Shown in pieces: positions 43,690 to 64,000 of a stretch of 64,000 bases of DNA (positions are counted from its first letter, which is position 1; every line of letters begins with the position of its first letter). Source of the DNA: Halobacterium wangiae (GTDB lineage: Archaea > Halobacteriota > Halobacteria > Halobacteriales > Halobacteriaceae). Location of the stretch: positions 186,001-250,000 of the forward strand of contig NZ_CP089588.1 in NCBI RefSeq assembly GCF_021249345.1. Reading direction: 5' to 3'. The notes under the pieces were generated by a model that was given only the letters and a program-made list of their open reading frames with translations, was not told the DNA's origin and did no database searches. Position numbers and translations under genes: made by a program.

Positions 43690-44829
43690 TCACTCGACGT
43701 GTGAGTCGTACACCGCCTCGCTGAGCGTGTCGCGGTGGCCCTCGTTGGGGCCGCCCGCGATAGTCAACAGTCGAGCGTCCCGGAGGTAGCGCTCCACGTG
43801 TCGCTCCGTCGTGTACCCGATGCCGCCGTGCAGCTGCATCGCGGTGTTCGCGTTCTCGACGGCCGCCTCGGTCGCGTGCACCTTCGCCATGCTGTACGCT
43901 CTCGTCGACGCCTCCCTCCGGTCGGCCGTCGCGGCGGCGCGGAGCGTGAGCAGTCTGGCAGCGTCGACGTTCGTCGCCATCTCGCCGACCTCCCAGGTGA
44001 CCCCCTGGAAGTCGGCGATCGGGTGGTCGAACTGCTCGCGCTGGGCCGTGTACTCGACGGTGTCCTCGAGGGCCGCCCGGGCGATACCGACGGCGCGCGC
44101 GGGGACGTTCACGCCGGTCGCGAGTTCGCCCCGCTGGACGTACCCCTCGCCGACGGCCCCCACGCGCTGGTCGTCGGGGACGCGGACGTCGGAGAGCGTT
44201 GCCTTCGGCGACTTCACGGGGTTCGCGCCGAGCGTGTCCCAGACGGTCTCCACGTCGAACTCGTCGGCGGGCACGAGGAACGCCGTGACGTTCCGCGGTG
44301 CGTCCGCGTCCGGTCCCGTCTTCGCGTACGTGAGCACGTAGTCCGCGTGGCTGAGGTTCGTTATCCAGCGCTTGTGGCCGTCCAGCAGCCACTCGTCGCC
44401 GTCCCGTTCGGCGGTCGTCTCCATCGCTAGCTTGTCGCTCCCGGCGCGTTCCTCGCTCAGTCCGAGCGCACCCACGGTGTCGTAGGACGCCATCTCGGGG
44501 AGGAACCGCTCGCGCTGGGCGTCGGAGCCGAACCGCTCGAGGACCTCCGCGACGCCGAGGTGCAGCGACAGCGCGCTCGCGACGGGCATCAGCGCCGCCG
44601 ACAGTTCCTCGACGACGACCGCCAGTTCGGTCATCCCCTCGCCCATCCCACCGTACGCCGCCGATATCGTCAACCCGCCGTACCCCATCTCCGCCAGGTC
44701 CTCGAGGATCCCCTCGGGGTACGTCTCGGTCTGATCGAGTTCGATGGCGCGCGGTCTGATGGTCTCCCGGGCGTATCGCCTGGCCTCCGCGCGCAGCGCC
44801 CGCTGGGAGTCGGTGAGCTGGAGCGTCAC
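43690..44829 (-). CDS. Acyl-CoA dehydrogenase family protein
   Basis: 379 residues from GTG 44829 (VTLQLTDSQRALRAEARRYA). FAD-binding helical N-terminal domain, beta-barrel with GALGLSEERAGSD and WITNLSHADYVLTYAKT, and C-terminal helices with TAMQLHGGIGYTTERHVERYLRDAR, which holds the catalytic Glu of the family. The upstream ATG would overlap the noncoding spacer. Oxidises an acyl-CoA to the 2-enoyl form in fatty acid or amino acid breakdown. Confidence 0.93.
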   Translation of the reverse strand: MTLQLTDSQRALRAEARRYARETIRPRAIELDQTETYPEGILEDLAEMGYGGLTISAAYGGMGEGMTELAVVVEELSAALMPVASALSLHLGVAEVLERFGSDAQRERFLPEMASYDTVGALGLSEERAGSDKLAMETTAERDGDEWLLDGHKRWITNLSHADYVLTYAKTGPDADAPRNVTAFLVPADEFDVETVWDTLGANPVKSPKATLSDVRVPDDQRVGAVGEGYVQRGELATGVNVPARAVGIARAALEDTVEYTAQREQFDHPIADFQGVTWEVGEMATNVDAARLLTLRAAATADRREASTRAYSMAKVHATEAAVENANTAMQLHGGIGYTTERHVERYLRDARLLTIAGGPNEGHRDTLSEAVYDSHVE

Positions 44830-45312
44830 GACGCGACACCCCCGGACTGGCACTGGCGGTCTCTGGACCGTTGGCCGGTGTCGTCGAGAAGGGCGAACGG
44901 GACGGTGGGCCGTTTCGCGGCCCGCGTAGCACACTCGGAGCGGCGGTTCATACTCGTACTGACAGTTGTTCGACGAGGGTGGTAAATTCTTGTGTCGGAC
45001 GACCCGGTCGGGTCTCCGGCGAGAAGCGGAACGCCGCTCCCTCTTCTTCGTTCAGCCCGACTTTGCGACCGTCCTGGTCGTCGTGATCTTCCACCTGCGT
45101 CGTCGCTGTCGCCTGTGCCGAGGAACGAGACGAGAGTCCTAGAATCTATCCCGCACCACAGCCATCCGCGGGGGTCGAGAGACAGATTCCGGTCTTCTCC
45201 GAGAAGTTAGTAGGCGTTTCGCGAGATTGCCGATTATCATAGGGCGGCCGGTAGAGACGGGGCTATCATCGTCGCCGGTCCCCCTTTCGCTACTTAGCCG
45301 ATAAAATGTGTG
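44830..45312. other. 483-base spacer containing a degenerate repeat (copy A)
   Basis: Gene-free between the acyl-CoA dehydrogenase and the response regulator. It contains copy A of a degenerate repeat at 45043-45153 (see that entry), and TCCGGTCTTCTCCGA near 45190, shared with two later spots. The rest is GC-rich with no other feature. Confidence 0.5.
45043..45153 (-). repeat. Degenerate dispersed repeat copy A (possible recombinase relic)
   Basis: Shares long stretches with 47573-47683, for example CGACCGTCCTGGTCGTCGTG and CCTAGAATCT. Read on the minus strand both copies translate to DHDDQDGR followed by LNEE, resembling the N-terminal part of haloarchaeal tyrosine recombinases (DGRxVWLxEEE). 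No full open frame remains. Confidence 0.5.
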
Positions 45313-47326: not shown

Positions 47327-47855
47327 GCATAATTCTGCTACTGGCCGTCTCGGGAACTGTCCGAGAGAATCCGTTCGACGACACTCGCCCGTTCACTGTG
47401 TGATCCCGCTCTCGTATTCTGTTCGACGTGCTAACACGGTCGTGAGCGTATTCGCGGAGATGGATCTCTCCCCCGACGCCTTCGCGTTGGCGAAGACCCT
47501 CGAGGAACTCCCCGAGGCCGAACGCGCTGCGCTTCTCGGTGTCCGTGGCGGTGTTCGGGAACCCCGCTGCTGCTTCTTCGTTGAGCCAGACATTTCGACC
47601 GTCCTGGTCGTCGTGATCTCCCCTCTGCATCGTCGCTGTCGCCTATTCCGAGAGATGCGACGAATATCCTAGAATCTTTCCCTCAACCGGGTCGCTTCGA
47701 GGGTGAAGTAAGCGGTTTCTGTCGGAGATTCCAGTCTTCTCCGACACCAGTTTAGGTGTCGCGGTTGCCGGGGTACCGCGACAGGAAAATGACGCACTTT
47801 CAGTGGATATGCGACGCTACGAAACGCTTTCCGCTGCTGACCATGTAGCACAGGT
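47327..47855. other. 529-base spacer with a degenerate repeat (copy C)
   Basis: Holds repeat copy C at 47573-47683. A forward frame at 47460 (MDLSPDAFALAKTLEELPEAE) and a reverse frame both look locally codon-like, but neither is an intact gene. The repeat-linked motif ATTCCAGTCTTCTCCGA is at 47725-47745. Confidence 0.45.
47573..47683 (-). repeat. Degenerate dispersed repeat copy C (possible recombinase relic)
   Basis: Partner of 45043-45153. Minus-strand reading gives MQRGDHDDQDGR then VWLNEE, and further on TDTEKRSAFGLG, the last similar to the conserved part of haloarchaeal integrases that follows the N-terminal arm. The frame then diverges. Identity to copy A is high in the core and lost outside. 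Confidence 0.5.
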
Positions 47856-49366: not shown

Positions 49367-49527
49367 AGAACGGGAGCGCTAGTGAGCGCGACATGATCAT
49401 TTCCTAGGAAGTCCGCGATAACGTACGCGGCTCTCCTGTCTCGCGGTTTTTGGTTTCTGAAGTAAGGGTATGGGGCCGGAGGGCGCACAGTCGATGGTCG
49501 GGCGTTGCGACTCGGGACGGAACGGCG

Positions 49528-50577
49528 TTATTCTGAATCATTGTCTGAGGCGCTGAGAATGTCGAGGTCGTTCGTTTCGGGGCGTCGGCGGGCCAGTTCG
49601 TCGTCCAAATCGGCCTTATCGTAGTAGCGCCGGATCGTCTCCGGACTCGACGCCACCCGCTCCGCGACTTTGACGTAGGAGAGTCCCCGGTTCAGCTGCC
49701 AGGTGATACTCCCCGTCCGAATCGCGTGCGGGGCGCGGCTACTCGGACACTTCGACGCGTGGCTCTTCTCCGTGTAATGGCAGGTCGCGCGCTCCCGATT
49801 ATGCGGGCACGCGGTCGCAACACAGGGTTGTGTCGCCTGATATGCCCACGTCTGAAGCGTCGACTCCGCCGGTCGGCCAAAACGCGTCGTCAACAGTGGC
49901 GTCCGTCCGTTTTCGTCCCGTTTCTCAGCGCGCTCTCGTTCGATGTAGAAGTCCAGGGCGTCCGCCGTCGCGTCCGTCAGCGCGACGTTTCGCTCGTGCT
50001 CGCTCCCGTCCTTCAGGCGCGTGGGTGGACGGTGACGGAACCGGATGACGCGGTCCCCGTCGTCGTAGTCGCCCAGGTCCAGCGCCCGGAAACAGGAGAT
50101 TCGGCCGCCGATGTGCCACATGAGTTCGAGAACGACGTGGTGAATCGTCCCGTAGTCCCGCGTGCTCTCCCGGAAGTGCTCCAGGAGCCGGCGCGCGTCG
50201 ACGGCCTCCAGGCGCTTGTCGCTCGTCTGCTCGTCCTTCGAGAGTTTCGGGAGTTCAATCCGCTCCGGGAGATCGTCGTCGACGACGTCCAGGCGGACAC
50301 AGTATTTCGCGAGTTCCTGGAGGGAGACAAGCTTGCCCTTCACCGTCGCGGGGGCGTCTCCGCGCTCGTCCAGGAACCGCTCGTATTCGTCGATAATCCA
50401 GCCGTCCAGGTCGCGCATGACGTCAACGTCGTCCCGGTCGTGAGCCCACCGAACGAACTGCCGGAGGCGATTCGCGTAACTCCGAACTGTCTTGTCCGTA
50501 TTCTTGTTCTGGCGCTTCGCCAGGAATCGCTCGGCGGCCTCACGGGGAGTTAGGTCGCGCTGGCGGTCGTCACTCAT
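49528..50577 (-). CDS. Tyrosine-type recombinase/integrase
   Basis: 349 residues from ATG 50577. N-terminal SAM-like domain (residues about 10-95), then the catalytic domain: Arg159 in HIGGRISCF, Lys189 region RLKDG, His284-x-x-Arg287 (HAIR) and nucleophile Tyr318/319 in RRYYDK. A Cys-rich insert (CVATACPHNRERATC) just before HxxR is typical of haloarchaeal integrases. Overlaps the zinc-ribbon gene (ATGA). It likely integrated the element that follows. Confidence 0.94.
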   Translation of the reverse strand: MSDDRQRDLTPREAAERFLAKRQNKNTDKTVRSYANRLRQFVRWAHDRDDVDVMRDLDGWIIDEYERFLDERGDAPATVKGKLVSLQELAKYCVRLDVVDDDLPERIELPKLSKDEQTSDKRLEAVDARRLLEHFRESTRDYGTIHHVVLELMWHIGGRISCFRALDLGDYDDGDRVIRFRHRPPTRLKDGSEHERNVALTDATADALDFYIERERAEKRDENGRTPLLTTRFGRPAESTLQTWAYQATQPCVATACPHNRERATCHYTEKSHASKCPSSRAPHAIRTGSITWQLNRGLSYVKVAERVASSPETIRRYYDKADLDDELARRRPETNDLDILSASDNDSE

Positions 50578-54392: not shown

Positions 54393-55391
54393 TTACCCGT
54401 GGCGGTAGTGCTTCCCTCGCCCAACCCCGTCTGAATAGACGAGTTCGTACTCGCTGAGCCGCCCCAGATACTTCCGCCGCGTCGACCGCGCGACGGGGTC
54501 CTGGGCGCGATCTTCGTACCGCGCGTGGAGTGTCCCGGCGTCCAGCTCGCCCGCCTCCCGGACGATCTCGTAGAGCAGGCGCTTGTCCGTATCCAACTCC
54601 CGAACACGATGCGCTCGCATATCTGCCCGGGCGTCCACCTCGACGTCGGCCACGAGCGCCTGCGTGATCTCCTCTCGCCCATCCGCAACCGCCTGCTCGA
54701 CCGCGCTTCGCAACAACGCGATGCCCGCTCGGGCGTCCCCGGCGGCCAGGTCCGCAATGTGCTCGAGAGCCTCCTCGCGAATCACGCCCGGCCGCAACCC
54801 CGCATTCACGCGGCCCTGAAGGATAGCCGTCATCTCCGCCACCGTGTAGCGGTCTAGGTGGACCTTCCGCGCGCCGCCGAAGCGACTCTGGAGCTGCTGA
54901 TCGAACTCCGCGAACAGCGCCTCCTCGTCGAGACACACCAGCAACAGCGTCACGTTCGGTTCCTCCCAGAGTGCCTGGAGGGTACTGTAATCCTCGAGGA
55001 CATGGACCTCGTCGACGATCGCGATGAACTGCCCGTCGATGTCCCCGATGCGGTCGAGGAATCGCGACGCGTGCGAGCCCTCCTTGCGAATGTCGTAGGC
55101 CACCTCCGCGTCTCGAGCGAGCGCGTATAATGCGTCCGCCCGCGTGCTGTTCGACATCGCGTTCACGTAGGCGGTGGTGGTGTCGAGGTTCTCCTGCTGG
55201 AGCAGGTCGACCACGTAGTGGGCGATCGTCGTCTTCCCCGTGCCACTCGGCCCGAAGATGAACGCGTCCTCGCCAGCGAAGCCGTCCGCAACGGGGCGCA
55301 GCGTCGTCGTGAGCGCGTCGATCTCGCCTTCGCGGTGGTGGAGTTCCTGGGGGACGAAGTCCGGTTGAAGTGCGCGAGCGTCAGTGATCAT
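54393..55391 (-). CDS. Orc1/Cdc6-type replication initiator
   Basis: 332 residues, a little short of the usual ~400. AAA+ ATPase: Walker A GPSGTGKTT (47-55), Walker B IAIVDEVHV (Asp127, Glu128), sensor-like LLLVCLDEEALF, and arginine-rich LQSRFGGARKV. The C-terminal winged helix ends GVGRGKHYRHG. Haloarchaea carry many such genes, often on plasmids or integrated elements, so it may mark an element-borne origin. It is divergent to the zinc-finger gene across 158 bases. Confidence 0.92.
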   Translation of the reverse strand: MITDARALQPDFVPQELHHREGEIDALTTTLRPVADGFAGEDAFIFGPSGTGKTTIAHYVVDLLQQENLDTTTAYVNAMSNSTRADALYALARDAEVAYDIRKEGSHASRFLDRIGDIDGQFIAIVDEVHVLEDYSTLQALWEEPNVTLLLVCLDEEALFAEFDQQLQSRFGGARKVHLDRYTVAEMTAILQGRVNAGLRPGVIREEALEHIADLAAGDARAGIALLRSAVEQAVADGREEITQALVADVEVDARADMRAHRVRELDTDKRLLYEIVREAGELDAGTLHARYEDRAQDPVARSTRRKYLGRLSEYELVYSDGVGRGKHYRHG

Positions 55392-57359: not shown

Positions 57360-57751
57360 TTCTGGCTAAGTGCTACAAACCTGAGGATAGAGATTAAGGT
57401 TTCCCAGGATTGGAGGGGGAGCCACTATAACGACGCGTCTACGGTAGAACTCCTTTATCGTTGATTGTACCCCGTACCCCAGAGAACTACCATCTCAATC
57501 ACCTGTTTTGATACACAGACGAGGTCACACGCGAACGCGGGCTAATTCGCGATAGTGGCCACGGCCACCCTGCGAGCGGTGGCCACAATTTCACGCTTCT
57601 ACTCCACGTGCGACCGCGCGACCACCCGGAACGATCGCTCACGCTGACGCTTGCTTGACGCTGAGGACGACTACGCCCCCTCTCGGAATCCTTCGGTTAT
57701 ACAAACCGCCCCAATGGAGAGCCCTTGAAGCGATTGACTGGTTAGATCGCC
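57360..57751. other. 392-base spacer with palindromes and repeat copy 1
   Basis: Contains GTGGCCAC twice (near 57555 and 57586) in an inverted layout around CGGCCACCCTGCGAGC, forming a possible hairpin, and GAACGCGGGCTAATTCGCG nearby. Copy 1 of the promoter-like repeat is at its right end (57684-57700). The rest has no gene. Could hold an origin or recombination site. Confidence 0.45.
57684..57700 (+). repeat. Cargo-zone direct repeat, copy 1 (partial)
   Basis: CGGAATCCTTCGGTTAT matches the left half of the longer copies at 59945, 61502 and 63373; the TATA/hairpin half is lost. Lies just 3' of the minus-strand membrane/coiled-coil gene. Confidence 0.6.
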
Positions 57752-58915
57752 TTACTTCAATCCCGGGACTGTGAATGAGAAGGGGCCCAGGTGAATTTTC
57801 GTCTGGTGGTCCATATTCTCTAATTGGGAAATTAGTTCCTTAGCGGTATCCTCAATTTCTTCAAGGCCATTTTCCAAGGTCTCCAATGCGCTATCACGCA
57901 TATCTTCAGCATCTGCTCGTTGCGACTCATAATGCTCAATGTCGTATTCTAACCCGTCTCTTTGCTCCATCATTTCCGTCATAGCGGGTTCGTCTTCAGC
58001 ATCTCCGGATAACGTAGAGAGGGAAGTTTCAACTGCATTAAGGTTAGACCGGAGGTCACTGATTCTATCGTCCACTGCAGTAAGATAATCTTCTGTTGTC
58101 TGCTGATCCGCCAAATAACTCTCAAGTTTATGCGAGTGCATTGACAAGCCTTCTAATTCTTTAGTCACTTCATCGTCAATATCTGCAGGAGCCTGTTCTG
58201 CTAAGCCACTTAACGCTTCGAGCGAGCTTATAATATTTGAAATGTTACTTGGTGGGGAGCCGTCTACCTCTGTGGACTCAGTGTGAGAAACTATGCTTTC
58301 CAAAACGCCTATTGCCGTGTCAGTCCACTTCTTCTCATACTGGATTGACTGCCTGTATCTGATAATCTGGAAGGTATATCGTGAGAAGGCCCCGGCCGCA
58401 ATGCCAACATATGCAATAATAACATAAATCGGGTCTATGGGACTGGAGACTCCAGAGATCCAAGCGAAAAGCTCGCGATTAACGCCTTCAAGAGTCCAAC
58501 TGATTCTATCCCAGAATAGGTAAAGCCCCATAACGGGGAGCGATGACAGAGCCACGATTATGCTTTTCTCGGCGGTAGCTGTCAGCTTCTGTTCTGGGTT
58601 TTCAACTGATTTCACACCCCGTCGAATGCCTAGGTATGCAACCGGGAGAATGCTGAACAGGCCTAAGAATACGCTAATCAATCCAACCTTTAGGAAAACA
58701 GAAGCAGTACTCAAGAAAATCTCGGCGGTGAAAAAGAGCGCGCCTCCTGTCAGGAATAGCAGAGACACTTCCACAAATCGATATTCCATATGGAAATCAG
58801 AAATCCTCTCATCGCCAGTATTCTGGAACTGCTGAATTGCTTGAAGAAGAATTGCTACCGCCGGAAGAGCAAGCGCAACTATTTGAAGTAATGTAACTGG
58901 CGAGGGAGCTGGCAT
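57752..58915 (-). CDS. Membrane protein with long coiled coil, function unknown
   Basis: 387 residues. Five hydrophobic segments in the first 190 residues (for example LLQIVALALPAVAILLQAIQ, VSLLFLTGGALFFTAEIFL and YVIIAYVGIAAGAFSRY), then a cytoplasmic region of ~180 residues with a coiled coil (DRISDLRSNLNAVETSLSTL through LENGLEEIEDTAKELISQLEN). AT-rich compared with the host genes. Same strand as the AlbA_2 gene 74 bases upstream, so the two may be one operon. Reminiscent of membrane effectors in defence loci, but this is unproven. Confidence 0.75.
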   Translation of the reverse strand: MPAPSPVTLLQIVALALPAVAILLQAIQQFQNTGDERISDFHMEYRFVEVSLLFLTGGALFFTAEIFLSTASVFLKVGLISVFLGLFSILPVAYLGIRRGVKSVENPEQKLTATAEKSIIVALSSLPVMGLYLFWDRISWTLEGVNRELFAWISGVSSPIDPIYVIIAYVGIAAGAFSRYTFQIIRYRQSIQYEKKWTDTAIGVLESIVSHTESTEVDGSPPSNISNIISSLEALSGLAEQAPADIDDEVTKELEGLSMHSHKLESYLADQQTTEDYLTAVDDRISDLRSNLNAVETSLSTLSGDAEDEPAMTEMMEQRDGLEYDIEHYESQRADAEDMRDSALETLENGLEEIEDTAKELISQLENMDHQTKIHLGPFSFTVPGLK

Positions 58916-58989
58916 ACACTCAGAAACAGTAGTAGCATGCCTTCAATCGTTCGTATTCCAATTAAAAAAATAGGAGTTATATCTTGAAT

Positions 58990-59892
58990 TCAGTCGACAT
59001 CTGGAACCTCTACATCCAAGTCGGTGAGTTCAGCAAGCTGCTCAAGGCCATATCCCAATCGTGAAACCTTTTTCTTGAATTCCCGCCTCTCATTTAGATA
59101 GAAATCCTTCTTGGAATCGTGATAGTCCTCTATGACTCCGTTCATCGCCCTTCCAAACATAACCTCACGATGTTCGATCTCCCGAATTCGAGTTAGAACA
59201 CGGGATATTGTGTCCCTGACCTCCTCGTCTCCGTAGAGGTGGTCTGCATTCCGAAGCACCTCCCGGATCCCGTCAGTGTTTACGACATGGAAGTCAGGGG
59301 GTGAGTGTCCATGAACGTGGGTGATATCTGGCCTGCCTTGGGTGACCGCATCACCGAATCGGTTAATCTCTAGCTCCAGTTGTCGAATGGTCTGTTGCTT
59401 TCGGTCACTTTCGATGAATAAGGACTCCATTTGTTCGCGGCTCATCGGCTCTTTCCGGTCATTCACTCGGACATAAATCGAGCCGTCGCTACACCGGACG
59501 GGTTTCCGGGTCGCTTCCTCAATCTTTACTGCAAATAGAATCCGGTCCACCGAATCCGAGGGAGTCTCAATCCGAGAGGACGTCTCTACAGGGATAATCG
59601 GGGTTGTATTCTGAAGTAGTCGAGTGACAGATTGTTCTACCTCGTGCTCTGGTGGCTCAAACGGGTACAGATCTCCGTCGTCGTTAATCCCGAAGATGAG
59701 GACTCCTCCGCTCGCGTTAGCGAACGCACAGAGTTCCCGTTCCAGTTTGATTTGCCATTGCTCTGAATCCTCGTTCTCATCGGCATGCAATTTCTCCTTA
59801 TATTCGAGATACTGGCCCTCAGAACGGTCTGAAATCCTCTCTACTGTCTCCCAGTCCCAGTCTGTGACTGGCGTCTGAAATGGTAAGTCCAT
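58990..59892 (-). CDS. AlbA_2 (Schlafen-type) domain protein
   Basis: 300 residues from ATG 59892. The AlbA_2 domain is near the N-terminus: SEGQYLEYKEKL, then LERELCAFANASGGVLIFGINDDGDLYPF, and GSIYVRVNDRKEPMSREQMESLF. Such domains are found in transcription factors and in Schlafen-like RNA nucleases or defence proteins. The C-terminal part (helical, ~130 residues) is unrecognised. It starts upstream of the coiled-coil gene. AT-rich composition. Confidence 0.82.
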   Translation of the reverse strand: MDLPFQTPVTDWDWETVERISDRSEGQYLEYKEKLHADENEDSEQWQIKLERELCAFANASGGVLIFGINDDGDLYPFEPPEHEVEQSVTRLLQNTTPIIPVETSSRIETPSDSVDRILFAVKIEEATRKPVRCSDGSIYVRVNDRKEPMSREQMESLFIESDRKQQTIRQLELEINRFGDAVTQGRPDITHVHGHSPPDFHVVNTDGIREVLRNADHLYGDEEVRDTISRVLTRIREIEHREVMFGRAMNGVIEDYHDSKKDFYLNERREFKKKVSRLGYGLEQLAELTDLDVEVPDVD

Positions 59893-59944
59893 AGAATATC
59901 CGAGACACCGGCCTGTAAAATTGCTTTGTACTGGCTGAACCTCG

Positions 59945-59985
59945 CGGAATCCTTCGGTTTTATAGCCGGCTCCTGTCGGCTCGCG
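59945..59985 (+). repeat. Cargo-zone direct repeat, copy 2
   Basis: Full-length repeat unit: left arm CGGAATCCTTCGGTT, TTTTATA box, then the hairpin GCCGGCTCCTGTCGGC and CTCGCG. In this copy the plus-strand promoter would read into the 3' end of the minus-strand pentapeptide gene, so any transcript is antisense to it. Confidence 0.75.
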
Positions 59986-60052
59986 ACAGGGGTTGGTCAT
60001 ATCCGGTCCGTCACTGCAAATTCGCTAATCCCAATCCTCAGAGGAGGAGGTA

Positions 60053-61414
60053 TCAGAACTGTTCCCTGTTGCCAAGGACGTAGCCGAGTAAGACGATCAG
60101 GAGCGTCCCAAAGAAGGTCTCGACCATCGTAAGAAGTTGGGTGAATGTCCCGGATGGAGGGCTAGTCGGAGGGGCCGCTGTAGTAAACGTCATTATGCTG
60201 TAGTAGACGCTGTTTGGAATTCCCGAGTACTCGTACCAGAGAGTACAGACTGAGAACAACAGAACCATGACGAGGCCAATCCTTTTCACGCGGACACCGT
60301 ATCCCGTCAAGTATCGGGATAGAAGAGAGCCAAGGTAACTAACCGAGACCATCCCCTCGGCTGCTTTTGCTTCATTTTCCCTGGCCCGTCGTTCACGGAC
60401 ATGAAAGAGCCTCGCACGGTCGACAAGCCCGTTATTGCCAAATTCTGATTTGAGTTGGTGGTACACTCTAGCGATTGTATCCCAATCATGTGCGGACTCT
60501 GCCCTTGATTCTAAACCGGATTGTATTCCGCACTCTGTGGCCCTGTCAACCTGGATATCAGAGAGTTGGGTTGTATTGAAGGTCGTACTCTGGAGGTCCG
60601 TCCCGCGGAAATCAGTAGCGGACAGGTTTGTTTCTTGGAATAGCGTGCTCTCTAAGATTGCCCGTTGAAAGTCTGACTGGACAAATTCAGATCGTATTAT
60701 CCGGCAGCCGTCAGCTACCGCATCATATAATCTTACGTCTTCTGCCCTAGAATCTGTAATAAAGGTGCCAAACATTGATGCGGAGTCAACTTCGGCCTCT
60801 GAGAGGTCACTGTACCTAATTTCAGCTTGATCTAGAATTACATCGCCCATTATCGCTTCCTTCAAATCACAGTTGTGCAGATTAGAATGGGATAAATCGG
60901 CATGGATGAAAGTCCCCTCACTGAGGTCGCAAAAGGCCAGATTGCAGCCGGAAAAGTCGGCAGCCCATGCGTTCGAAGTCGATAAATCAACACTAAGGAG
61001 GCGAGAGTTTTGGAACATCACATCCTCAAGCTCGCTTTTTACGAAATCCATATCCGAGATGGTGCTTTCCGAAAAATCAGCTCCATTGAGAACACATTCG
61101 CTGAAATCAAACTCCAAACCTAAGTCCAAATTCCTGAAGATTGCTCCATCAAATCTTATATCAGGAGGCCTAACGTGATTCGATATTTCACTGGGAGATT
61201 TCTCATCAGTGTTCGCATGAACAATACACTGGTCGAACCCCTTCCAAGTAGGCCTAAAACAAGTGAAATCCCCAAGAACAGAACTCCCCGTTCCATACTC
61301 TACAGAAAAACCGCATTTATCAGCAGGTGCACTATCTTCAAGATACGCTGCTTCCCATTTTGATGGTAGTGAGTCCGAATCAGGAGGCCAGACATTGTAA
61401 GAAACACTTTTCAT
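60053..61414 (-). CDS. Pentapeptide-repeat protein with C-terminal ion-channel domain
   Basis: 453 residues. Residues about 85-285 carry pentapeptide repeats A(D/N)L/F-x-x (for example ADFSESTISDMDFVKSELED, CNLAFCDLSEGTFIHADLSHSNL). Residues 370-440 form a two-helix pore unit: VKRIGLVMVLLFSVCTLWY, the filter-like YYSIMTFTTAAPPTSPP (where channels have TVGYGD), and MVETFFGTLLIVLLGYVL. Pentapeptide plus channel proteins occur in bacteria and archaea and are suspected effectors. AT-rich and minus-strand, flanked by repeats 2 and 3. Confidence 0.85.
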   Translation of the reverse strand: MKSVSYNVWPPDSDSLPSKWEAAYLEDSAPADKCGFSVEYGTGSSVLGDFTCFRPTWKGFDQCIVHANTDEKSPSEISNHVRPPDIRFDGAIFRNLDLGLEFDFSECVLNGADFSESTISDMDFVKSELEDVMFQNSRLLSVDLSTSNAWAADFSGCNLAFCDLSEGTFIHADLSHSNLHNCDLKEAIMGDVILDQAEIRYSDLSEAEVDSASMFGTFITDSRAEDVRLYDAVADGCRIIRSEFVQSDFQRAILESTLFQETNLSATDFRGTDLQSTTFNTTQLSDIQVDRATECGIQSGLESRAESAHDWDTIARVYHQLKSEFGNNGLVDRARLFHVRERRARENEAKAAEGMVSVSYLGSLLSRYLTGYGVRVKRIGLVMVLLFSVCTLWYEYSGIPNSVYYSIMTFTTAAPPTSPPSGTFTQLLTMVETFFGTLLIVLLGYVLGNREQF

Positions 61415-61501
61415 AGATGTACACCACCGCCACTCAAAGAAAAAACCTGTTTACCCTTCATGTCTTTCTTTCCGCTATTTTCATGTTCCTATACATGCGT
61501 T

Positions 61502-61541
61502 GGAATCCTTCGGTTTTATAACCGGCTCCTGTCGGCTCGCG
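61502..61541 (+). repeat. Cargo-zone direct repeat, copy 3
   Basis: Nearly identical to copies 2 and 4: GGAATCCTTCGGTT, TTTATA box, hairpin with ACCGGCTCCTGTCGGC and CTCGCG. It is directly followed by a truncated Tat-signal open frame. Confidence 0.75.
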
Positions 61542-61554
61542 TGGAAGAACTCCC

Positions 61555-61659
61555 ATGCGTAGCAAATCTACGACTGACAGCGACGAACTGACAGAATCAG
61601 CGATGCCCCGGCGCCAGTTTCTCGCGGGCGAACTCGACGCTGACGACCTCGAAGACTGA
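61555..61659 (+). pseudogene. Truncated Tat-signal paralogue of the gene at 63427
   Basis: 34 residues, MRSKSTTDSDELTESAMPRRQFLAGELDADDLED, then a stop. The first 25 residues match the 63427 protein (MRSESNSGGDELTETTMPRRQFLAG) but the hydrophobic part and mature protein are gone. It follows repeat copy 3 exactly as 63427 follows copy 4, so a duplication that lost the body of the gene is likely. Confidence 0.7.
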
Positions 61660-61711
61660 CCAAGTCCTGTTATCCCGGAAGAATAAAACACCCCGAAATC
61701 AAGGCGTAGCT

Positions 61712-63352
61712 ATGCAAAGGTGGCGCCGCATTCTCGGGGGTAACAACCCCGTCGACGAGCGGCTATTGCGGTTGGTGGGCATCGCTTTCGTGACGCTCGT
61801 TGCGACCGTCGCGTTGGCGGGCTGCATGGGGCTGGGCACGGGCGGCGGGGGACCGTCGCTCTCGGACGCACAAGTCGGTGTCGCGGAGAGTGGCGGGCCG
61901 GCAGTGGCGGTCAACTACTCGGTCGACGACTACGCGACCATCCTCTTGGAGGGGCCAGAAAACAACATCCTCAACGAGGTTGAGGTCTCGCCGGAGGGCA
62001 ACCAGACGGCCATGTACATGGGAGACGTAGGTGCGGGCGAGTACGAGCTTGTACTCCGCCAGGGTGACGAGACAGTTGATTCACAGACAATGACCTTTGA
62101 GGGCGCCGAGCCACAGGTCGAGATTGTCTCACCAAATTGGTCCGGGAACACGATTGAGTCAGTCGACGTGACTATTACGAATACGGGCGACCTTCCAGTC
62201 TACGTGGATAATGTGGCGTACTCGGCCCGTGGGGACTCGGTAGAGAACAGTGTCTACAGCTGGATTGACGCCAACGACTCGCGGACGTTCAATGTGGCGG
62301 GGTCTTTTGGTTCGTCCGTGACCATTGAGGAGCGCGGTGACGTGATTGGGTCTGTCGAAGTGGCGACGGACGCTGGCGTTCTCACCGATTCGTTCCAGCG
62401 AACGTTCGACGGTCCGAATCTCACGGTCACGAATATTGATACGGAGTGGGAGAACAACGAGCTACACACTGCGGAGGTGACTGTCCGGAACGATGGCGAT
62501 CTCCCGACGACCGGTAACGTGACGATTGTAAGTGGTGGCGAGTCTCTGGCGTCCTCGTACAGCAATGAGGTTGCAGTCGGTTCGACAACGACCTTCGAAC
62601 TGGTCGGGTACTCGTACATCTATCGAGCAGAGTCCGGTGGGACGGCCAATCTGGACGTGATCGTCAATTCGCCGACCGGATATGTGACCGACCAGATTAC
62701 GCGGGAAATTGCGGGTTCGAACGTCTCTATTGAATCGATGAATACAGAGTGGCAGAACGGGGAACTGGTATCTGTCACGTTTATAGCGGCGAACGATGGC
62801 GAAGTGGCGAGCGATGGGGCCGCTGAAGTCACAGTGAACGGTGAAGTCGTCTCGAAGGATTCAATCTCGATTGAACCATCCACGACGTCCGAGTTCACCG
62901 TATCGGATGGTGCGTATACTGTTGAACCGCTCTACACGGCAGACAGTGGGGGATCACAAGAAGTGACTCTCTCCATCAGTGGCGACGGCTGGTCTGACTC
63001 GGAGACGTCGACGACCTCACTTGGCGGCGTCGACGGAGAACTCTCGTCGATATCGACAATGTTCTTCGGGAACTACGACGAGGACACGTCAGACCTCAGT
63101 TCCGTGGACTTCAACGTCCGGAACACGGGAGACTTAACGATCAGCTACGACGCCGTGGAAGTCTCGATTGATGGAGTGAGCACCACGGATAATCTCTACT
63201 CGGCCACGGAGTTGACGCCAGGACAGTCGACGAGTGAGTACGTCTCGACGGACCTCACCGTGGACGATGGAAGTCACGAACTCACGATTCGGTTACTGGA
63301 CGACGGCGAAGAGGTCCTTTCGGAGACAGTCACCGTCTCGACGAACGAGTGA
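61712..63352 (+). CDS. Large lipoprotein with CARDB-like repeats
   Basis: 546 residues. Signal peptide LLRLVGIAFVTLVATVALAGC gives a lipobox (Cys at about 38). The mature protein consists of about five beta-sandwich units with the N-D-G-x-x-P motif (for example ITNTGDLPVYVDNVAYSARG, VRNDGDLPTTGNVTIVSG, and AANDGEVASDGAAEVTVNGE), matching CARDB/PKD-like adhesion repeats. Surface protein of the integrated element; may act in adhesion, receptor binding or vesicle/virus-like functions. Confidence 0.82.
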   Translation: MQRWRRILGGNNPVDERLLRLVGIAFVTLVATVALAGCMGLGTGGGGPSLSDAQVGVAESGGPAVAVNYSVDDYATILLEGPENNILNEVEVSPEGNQTAMYMGDVGAGEYELVLRQGDETVDSQTMTFEGAEPQVEIVSPNWSGNTIESVDVTITNTGDLPVYVDNVAYSARGDSVENSVYSWIDANDSRTFNVAGSFGSSVTIEERGDVIGSVEVATDAGVLTDSFQRTFDGPNLTVTNIDTEWENNELHTAEVTVRNDGDLPTTGNVTIVSGGESLASSYSNEVAVGSTTTFELVGYSYIYRAESGGTANLDVIVNSPTGYVTDQITREIAGSNVSIESMNTEWQNGELVSVTFIAANDGEVASDGAAEVTVNGEVVSKDSISIEPSTTSEFTVSDGAYTVEPLYTADSGGSQEVTLSISGDGWSDSETSTTSLGGVDGELSSISTMFFGNYDEDTSDLSSVDFNVRNTGDLTISYDAVEVSIDGVSTTDNLYSATELTPGQSTSEYVSTDLTVDDGSHELTIRLLDDGEEVLSETVTVSTNE

Positions 63353-63372
63353 GATAGAGCAAGAGCACTCTG

Positions 63373-63413
63373 CGGAATCCTTCGGTTTTATAGCCGGCTC
63401 CTGTCGGCTCGCG
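63373..63413 (+). repeat. Cargo-zone direct repeat, copy 4 (promoter of the Tat protein)
   Basis: CGGAATCCTTCGGTT, TTTTATA (63386-63392), hairpin GCCGGCTCCTGTCGGC and CTCGCG. The TATA is about 38 bases from the ATG at 63427, so transcription would start just before the second hairpin GGGAG-AA-CTCCC (63415-63426), placing that stem on the start codon. Confidence 0.8.
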
Positions 63414-63426
63414 TGGGAGAACTCCC

Positions 63427-64000
63427 ATGCGTAGCGAATCCAACTCTGGCGGCGACGAATTGACTGAAACCACTATGCCGCGGCGGCAGTTCCTGGCGGG
63501 CGCGGGCGCAGCTGGCGCGGCAATCGCGGTGGGCGCGGGCGGTGCGGCGGCTCATTCGGACGGGGAGTGGACCACCGGAAAGGACGGCCTCAACTTCGGC
63601 AGTGGGTACGTCCCGGGACCATACTTCAAGGAGGACCCGGTGACGAAGGCAAAGCACAAACTCGCGTGGGGGACGGACGACGCGGCGCTCGTCGCCTACG
63701 AGGACGACGCCGGGGAGAAAGCAATGCTCCCGGCCGTCGTCGACCGGGAGGACACGGACAACGTCGTGACGCTCCGCGCGGACAAACTCGAAGCGCCCGA
63801 TCTCTACGAGTTCCCGCGCGGCGAGATGTACGACAAGAGCGGGGACGGCGACGCGGAGACGGCCATTTACGCGCTCGACCCGACGCACTGGACGACGACG
63901 GACGCAACGGACGGGAGTATTTCCGTCCAGGAGGGCGACGCGCCGGTAAGCCATTCGCTCCAGGTGACGGCGACCGGCGTCACCGCCGGGGAGACGGTGT
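63427..64000 (+). CDS. Tat-exported protein (3' end outside window)
   Basis: Open to the window end; first 191 residues seen. Twin-arginine-like signal MPRRQFLAGAGAAGAAIAVGAGGAAA follows an N-terminal acidic tail, so translation may start at 63427 or at the ATG 63475 (MPRRQF). The mature part (DGEWTTGKDGLNFGSGYVPGPYFKEDPVTKAKHKLAWGTDD) is not recognised. Its message starts inside a repeat-derived promoter with a stem immediately upstream of the start codon, which could affect initiation. Confidence 0.75.
   Translation, partial: MRSESNSGGDELTETTMPRRQFLAGAGAAGAAIAVGAGGAAAHSDGEWTTGKDGLNFGSGYVPGPYFKEDPVTKAKHKLAWGTDDAALVAYEDDAGEKAMLPAVVDREDTDNVVTLRADKLEAPDLYEFPRGEMYDKSGDGDAETAIYALDPTHWTTTDATDGSISVQEGDAPVSHSLQVTATGVTAGETV

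Follow-up and report, generated by a model that had tools for sequence, protein, structure and literature searches.

What are the four short direct repeats that border low-GC genes in Halobacterium wangiae, and how did they come to stand there? In the window, i.e., the whole stretch of 64,000 nucleotides of contig NZ_CP089588.1 that was analyzed (coordinates with the prefix C1 refer to the contig), these repeats had been read from the sequence alone as promoter-like boundaries at which cargo genes could be swapped. Our analysis argues for a different origin: the repeat is probably the core promoter unit of a surface-protein operon, and extra copies of it would have been left beside foreign cargo when related elements recombined and DNA was then deleted.

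Repeat copies and promoter-like anatomy

The unit is 42 bp long and occurs four times, always on the plus strand, at 57683, 59944, 61500 and 63372, which confirms the four same-strand, promoter-like direct repeats described before. R2 (59944-59985), taken as reference, and R4 (63372-63413), which is located directly before the Tat/ATPase operon, are identical at 42/42 positions (100%), and their flanks are unrelated, as 30/40 and 28/40 positions mismatch outside of the unit and the similarity stops on both sides. R3 (61500-61541) is 93% identical to R2 and agrees with R4 at 39/40 positions over 61502-61541. The similarity of R3 and R4 runs on for 144 nt (82%) into the start of the Tat-signal gene, in agreement with the earlier description, but R3 is followed by a truncated ORF of 34 codons. 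R1 (57683-57724) is degenerate: it shows 62% identity to R2 over 42 nt, is well kept in the first ~19 nt only and retains GGAATCCTTCGGTT.

These four are the only sites with up to two mismatches in the whole 3.1-Mb genome, and a reversed-pattern control at the same threshold returned zero sites. In the ~114 kb around the locus, the next best half-unit matches carry 7 mismatches (21-nt left part) and 10 mismatches (28-nt right part). The repeat was found neither in 25 other genomes of the family (40 bases, up to 3 mismatches) nor in 393 other genomes of the order (20 bases, up to 2 mismatches) nor in viral contigs (exact match). Self-comparison of the relatives' loci, all of them distant with protein identities of at most 50%, yielded no counterpart repeat. 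One 26-bp repeat, found in L029, was rejected as counterpart as it sits inside two coding regions. A scan of the 57-64 kb region against Rfam was empty, and the reading as an RNA family was rejected.

The intergenic repeats of HF2, grouped in class I of 58 bp and class II of 29 bp, were shown to be promoters with a TATA box beginning at -26 (PMC8707807). In R4 the motif TTTTATA is located at 63386-63392, ~26 bases ahead of the predicted start. With the HF2 spacing, +1 is predicted near 63412, where the repeat ends on its right side, and the Tat ATG follows ~15 nt later. The unit thus has the extent of a core promoter from about -40 to +1; this anatomy supports the promoter-like character claimed before. 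Between TATA box and predicted start lies the dyad AGCCGGC-TCCT-GTCGGCT, which is intact in R2 and R4 only. The reported combination of TATA box and GCCGGC hairpin thus applies to R2 and R4, whereas R3 has ACCGGC and R1 has a degenerate TATA box and no dyad. A strong consensus was not demonstrated for the candidate BRE region, and the RNA fold of the 42-bp unit is ordinary (z -1.8 and -0.6). At R3 and R4, and not at R2, a 22-bp near-palindrome covers the predicted start site and the start codon on the plus strand (CGCGTGGAAGAACTCCCATGCG at 61538-61559 and CGCGTGGGAGAACTCCCATGCG at 63410-63431). It is operator- or hairpin-like, and the stretch holding the R4 copy has a fold z of -4.45.

The spacing from TATA box to predicted start fits at R3 and R4. 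R1 and R2 have no plus-strand gene and face the 3' ends of cargo genes on the minus strand, which counts against the promoter explanation. R3 and R4 are taken to be working promoters and R1 to be decayed, and R2 would be a relic or a source of counter-transcripts. As the HF2 repeats, the copies are near-identical, promoter-sized, intergenic and confined to one archaeal mobile genome, with a TATA box about 26 bp before the start, which here is predicted. Unlike the HF2 repeats, they border low-GC cargo, two of the copies drive no plus-strand gene, and neither sequence nor relative position is conserved in relatives, which are distant (at most 50% protein identity); no motif common to both repeat types was noticed. 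As the resemblance does not extend to positional conservation, the unit may be regarded as a variant of HF2-type repeats.

An integrated element with a variable cargo zone

The repeat zone is enclosed by an element of ~27 kb that is integrated in a tRNA-Trp gene at its 3' end. This gene, which contains an intron, was identified by reading the sequence, ARAGORN having reported no tRNA. The 16-bp attL site GTATGGGGCCGGAGGG (49468-49483) matches exactly attR at C1:262460-262475 (76460-76475 in extended numbering), which is located outside the window in the 3' end of the tRNA-Trp gene. Just inside attL, the minus strand encodes a tyrosine integrase of 349 aa (49528-50577), for which Phage_integrase scores just under the Pfam cut-off (E=4.9e-6) and Phage_int_SAM_5 above it. 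The tRNA-Trp region has matches in 13/13 genomes of the genus, and in the closest one, the sister species G014, the homolog of the left flank (44576-45007) lies ~1.05 kb from the tRNA compared to ~31 kb here. Att direct repeats, an adjacent tyrosine integrase and an insert-free locus in a relative were thus found, as expected of a tRNA-integrated element. In several other genomes of the genus the sequence beside the tRNA resembles the right border, which suggests that the site is an integration hot spot. That the element's integrase uses the 42-bp repeat as its att site was rejected, since the att sites lie elsewhere. Outside of attL, a 72-bp direct repeat (89%; 45043-45114 and 47573-47644) may border another insertion of ~2.5 kb.

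The operon behind R4 starts with the gene of a Tat-exported, C-terminally anchored surface protein of 526 aa (plus strand, 63427-64000 and on to C1:251007), followed by genes for small membrane proteins, a P-loop ATPase and a large secreted-type protein, and it extends to about C1:259287. A search with an alignment of the ATPase identified 16 loci in other assemblies, of which 15 also contain a matching Tat gene; viral contigs yielded none, and searches with a second alignment or with the Tat protein found no relatives. Related operons are present across haloarchaea, also within the same family. One of the 16 loci, L048 (NZ_JAUDRZ010000015.1), is labelled Rhizobium sp. S152; it is of haloarchaeal type and probably represents contamination or mislabelling. 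Left of the cargo zone lies the gene of an Orc1/Cdc6-like AAA protein (54393-55391, minus strand). Relatives also have a Cdc6-like gene left of the Tat operon, with other genes between the two. With these data the oddity is placed in a widespread family of haloarchaeal integrative elements.

Between R1 and R2, the minus strand encodes a membrane protein with a C-terminal coiled coil (387 aa, 57752-58915), which has SMC/Rad50-type coiled-coil matches only and for which no plasmid homolog was found, and an SLFN_AlbA_2 protein (58990-59892; 300 aa from the ATG at 59892; Pfam E=1.5e-19) with homologs of 40-44% in unrelated surroundings on three haloarchaeal plasmids. Between R2 and R3 lies the minus-strand gene (60053-61414) of a pentapeptide-repeat protein of 453 aa, which has membrane segments in its C-terminal part. 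It shows a weak match (E=4e-6, with a score that falls far short of the curated cut-off) to HalA, which acts as effector in the Hailong anti-phage system. Both intervals have a GC content of 47-48% versus 67% in chromosome and operon. The picture of minus-strand, AT-rich cargo between the copies is correct for these two intervals, but the third (61.7-63.35 kb) contains a plus-strand gene for a lipoprotein-type surface protein (546 aa, 61712-63352), which is recurrent in the element family, with relatives of 40-48% identity in G010, G018, G022 and G004.

None of the loci of relatives that were compared, some of which cover no more than ~3 kb ahead of the Tat gene, contains the coiled-coil, AlbA_2 or pentapeptide gene. 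In L048 and L049 the operons are 92% alike and the zone upstream is largely unalignable, a GIY-YIG-like gene being present there in only one of the two as judged by eye. The zone before the operon varies in the element family, without 42-bp repeats at that position. Of the two observations under which a role in cargo exchange was to be abandoned, i.e., a repeat present only here and cargo invariant in all relatives, the first was made, whereas the cargo varies. These data point to the stretch before the surface-protein operon as a place of turnover for accessory, possibly defensive, genes. In L028 (8536-9117), L029 (9045-9668), L031 (9384-9971) and also L030, a short tyrosine recombinase of ~195-213 aa is encoded upstream of the Tat operon, and one of the same type is found beside the ATPase in L047 (13579-14175). 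It is possibly an inversion or cargo recombinase and is absent from the H. wangiae element.

Probable recombination scars and competing explanations

The history of the copies is best readable behind R3. There, an ORF of 34 codons (61555-61659, plus strand) consists of 25 codons of a diverged Tat gene fused in frame to the apparent C-terminus of a winged-helix gene. It ends with LAGELDADDLED before its stop codon, and the winged-helix gene preceding the lipoprotein gene in L028 (G010) ends with LEGDLPTDALEDD, the match comprising ~12 residues of which 7 are identical. The Tat codons following R3 and R4 differ at 17/75 sites, seven codons being changed only synonymously, versus 1/40 in the promoter block (Fisher p=0.006). 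A recent tandem duplication as origin of R3 and R4 is ruled out by these seven synonymously diverged codons beside a near-identical promoter block; the diverged codons rather indicate that R3 originates from a related, diverged element. Judged from the sequence, the fusion is probably the scar of a recombination between two related elements.

In the proposed course of events, the zone that separates the operon from the Cdc6-like gene is where the elements would gain and lose cargo. Most simply, two related elements would recombine, and a deletion would then join the Tat start to the regulator tail and bring the lipoprotein gene next to the Tat/ATPase operon; a truncated second Tat gene would thus stand behind R3, and none behind R2 and R1. 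The unit would comprise a BRE region, a TATA box, an initiator and the small dyad between TATA box and start, with R4 driving the Tat/ATPase operon and R3 the short chimeric leader ORF and the lipoprotein gene. R1 and R2 have no Tat-gene tail like that of R3 and may be other recombination scars. The perfect identity of R2 and R4 is unexpected for an old relic and suggests recency, selection or gene conversion. Most likely, the four copies record sites of recombination between related elements at which a promoter was reused; they do not resemble a new gene-cassette machine.

A dedicated exchange of cargo at the repeats, by which genes are inserted, deleted or swapped through RadA, microhomology joining or a tyrosine recombinase with the repeat as cassette boundary, is possible but unlikely. 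It would account for low-GC cargo lying exactly between copies and for a zone that is variable in the family, in which several relatives encode the short tyrosine recombinase. Haloferax repairs breaks by homologous recombination and microhomology joining (PMC7776575), so that exchange at short homologies is conceivable in haloarchaea, but no junction supports it: the sole readable one, after R3, joins two gene fragments outside the repeat. Moreover, the cargo of relatives has no such flanking repeats, the repeat is absent elsewhere, the small recombinase is missing from the H. wangiae element, and repeat arms and spacing are unlike a tyrosine-recombinase core. As in integron arrays, cargo lies between short repeats of one orientation; unlike these, the repeats are few and one interval has the opposite gene orientation. 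No attC cores (GTTRRRY / RYYYAAC) were seen by eye in the repeat sequences and no integron-type integrase at the array, the only recombinase recognized being the tRNA-site integrase beside attL, and an integron attC reading was rejected. The cassette-array-like mechanism suggested by the sequence-only reading is therefore not upheld.

A variant of this exchange would need no dedicated enzyme: the promoter could serve as homology anchor, incoming related elements or cargo recombining at the copy before the surface-protein operon and each exchange leaving a new gene block and a promoter copy. We consider this improbable, and to the same degree its consequence, a promoter-bounded cargo array without dedicated integrase. 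Should the repeats prove to be such anchors, cargo exchange among archaeal elements would be explained without any cassette integrase; otherwise, the locus shows in readable form how a promoter is reused once related elements have recombined.

It is likewise doubtful that cargo and Tat operon are under the joint control of one regulator or expression program, with R2 and R3 acting divergently on the AlbA_2 and pentapeptide genes or giving rise to counter-transcripts. This would agree with the strong conservation of the unit against its diverged neighbors and with the positions of R2 and R3, which lie upstream of the AlbA_2 and pentapeptide genes by 52 nt and 86 nt, respectively; the HF2 class II repeats keep about half of their activity when reversed, and HF2 makes long counter-transcripts (PMC8707807). 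However, both cargo genes have a better placed AT-rich box of their own ~25-30 nt before the start codon as judged by eye, so that the repeats need not drive either of them, the operator-like palindrome is restricted to R3 and R4, and R1 appears decayed. That the unit is a mobile promoter or miniature element copying itself in a REP- or MITE-like manner is highly improbable, since the sharp boundaries and near-identical copies beside unrelated genes are confronted with just four copies within 5.8 kb of one element, the rest of the genome having none. Moreover, neither a target duplication nor clear terminal inverted repeats were seen, and the RNA fold is not unusual.

Relation to pleolipoviruses and plasmid vesicles

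Pleolipoviruses and related proviruses, including a Halobaculum provirus in tRNA-Trp, have been described (PMC10599561). The H. wangiae element shares with them a membrane-anchored surface protein with small membrane proteins and an ATPase behind it, a tyrosine integrase and the tRNA-Trp site. A search of a phage collection with the Tat protein, the ATPase and p322 gave no match, and comparison with VP4 and VP8 of HRPV-1 revealed nothing beyond the P-loop. The predicted structure of the Tat protein (pLDDT 84) has partial fold matches, mainly to carbohydrate-binding-module-like sandwiches and to the HFTV1 turret, with no pleolipovirus spike among the fold matches listed, no full-length match in BFVD and no sequence match in the PDB. 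With only partial fold matches, the Tat protein was rejected as a pleolipovirus spike. Unlike Pleolipoviridae, the element has no recognizable VP4 spike or VP8 ATPase and a size of ~27 kb. Gene order is the only respect in which it resembles pleolipoviruses; no connection emerged when sequences, profiles and folds were compared, and the element family could not be matched to them.

Plasmids of the pR1SE type move in plasmid vesicles, the apHPVs (PMC10818511). As these, the element is haloarchaeal and has a cluster of surface and membrane proteins, a P-loop ATPase, a Cdc6-like gene and a variable region; among the genes scanned there was no match to the S8-family serine peptidase (ORF7), a core gene of apHPVs.

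Two minor observations concern the element copies. L049 and L050, both on the Halobaculum litoreum chromosome, are 99.8% identical and lie ~44 kb apart across the record ends; the Tat frame has no start in L049 and a Cdc6-like gene is split next to L050, and the pair could be an assembly artefact. A hairpin-like block of 26 bp, CCCCCTTAGGGGCACTACCGTAGGGG, at C1:259265-259290 (L005:18265-18290) is 100% identical at L048:15424-15449 and kept over 25 bp in L049 and L050, with operon DNA only ~66% identical; it is possibly an origin, nick or packaging site.
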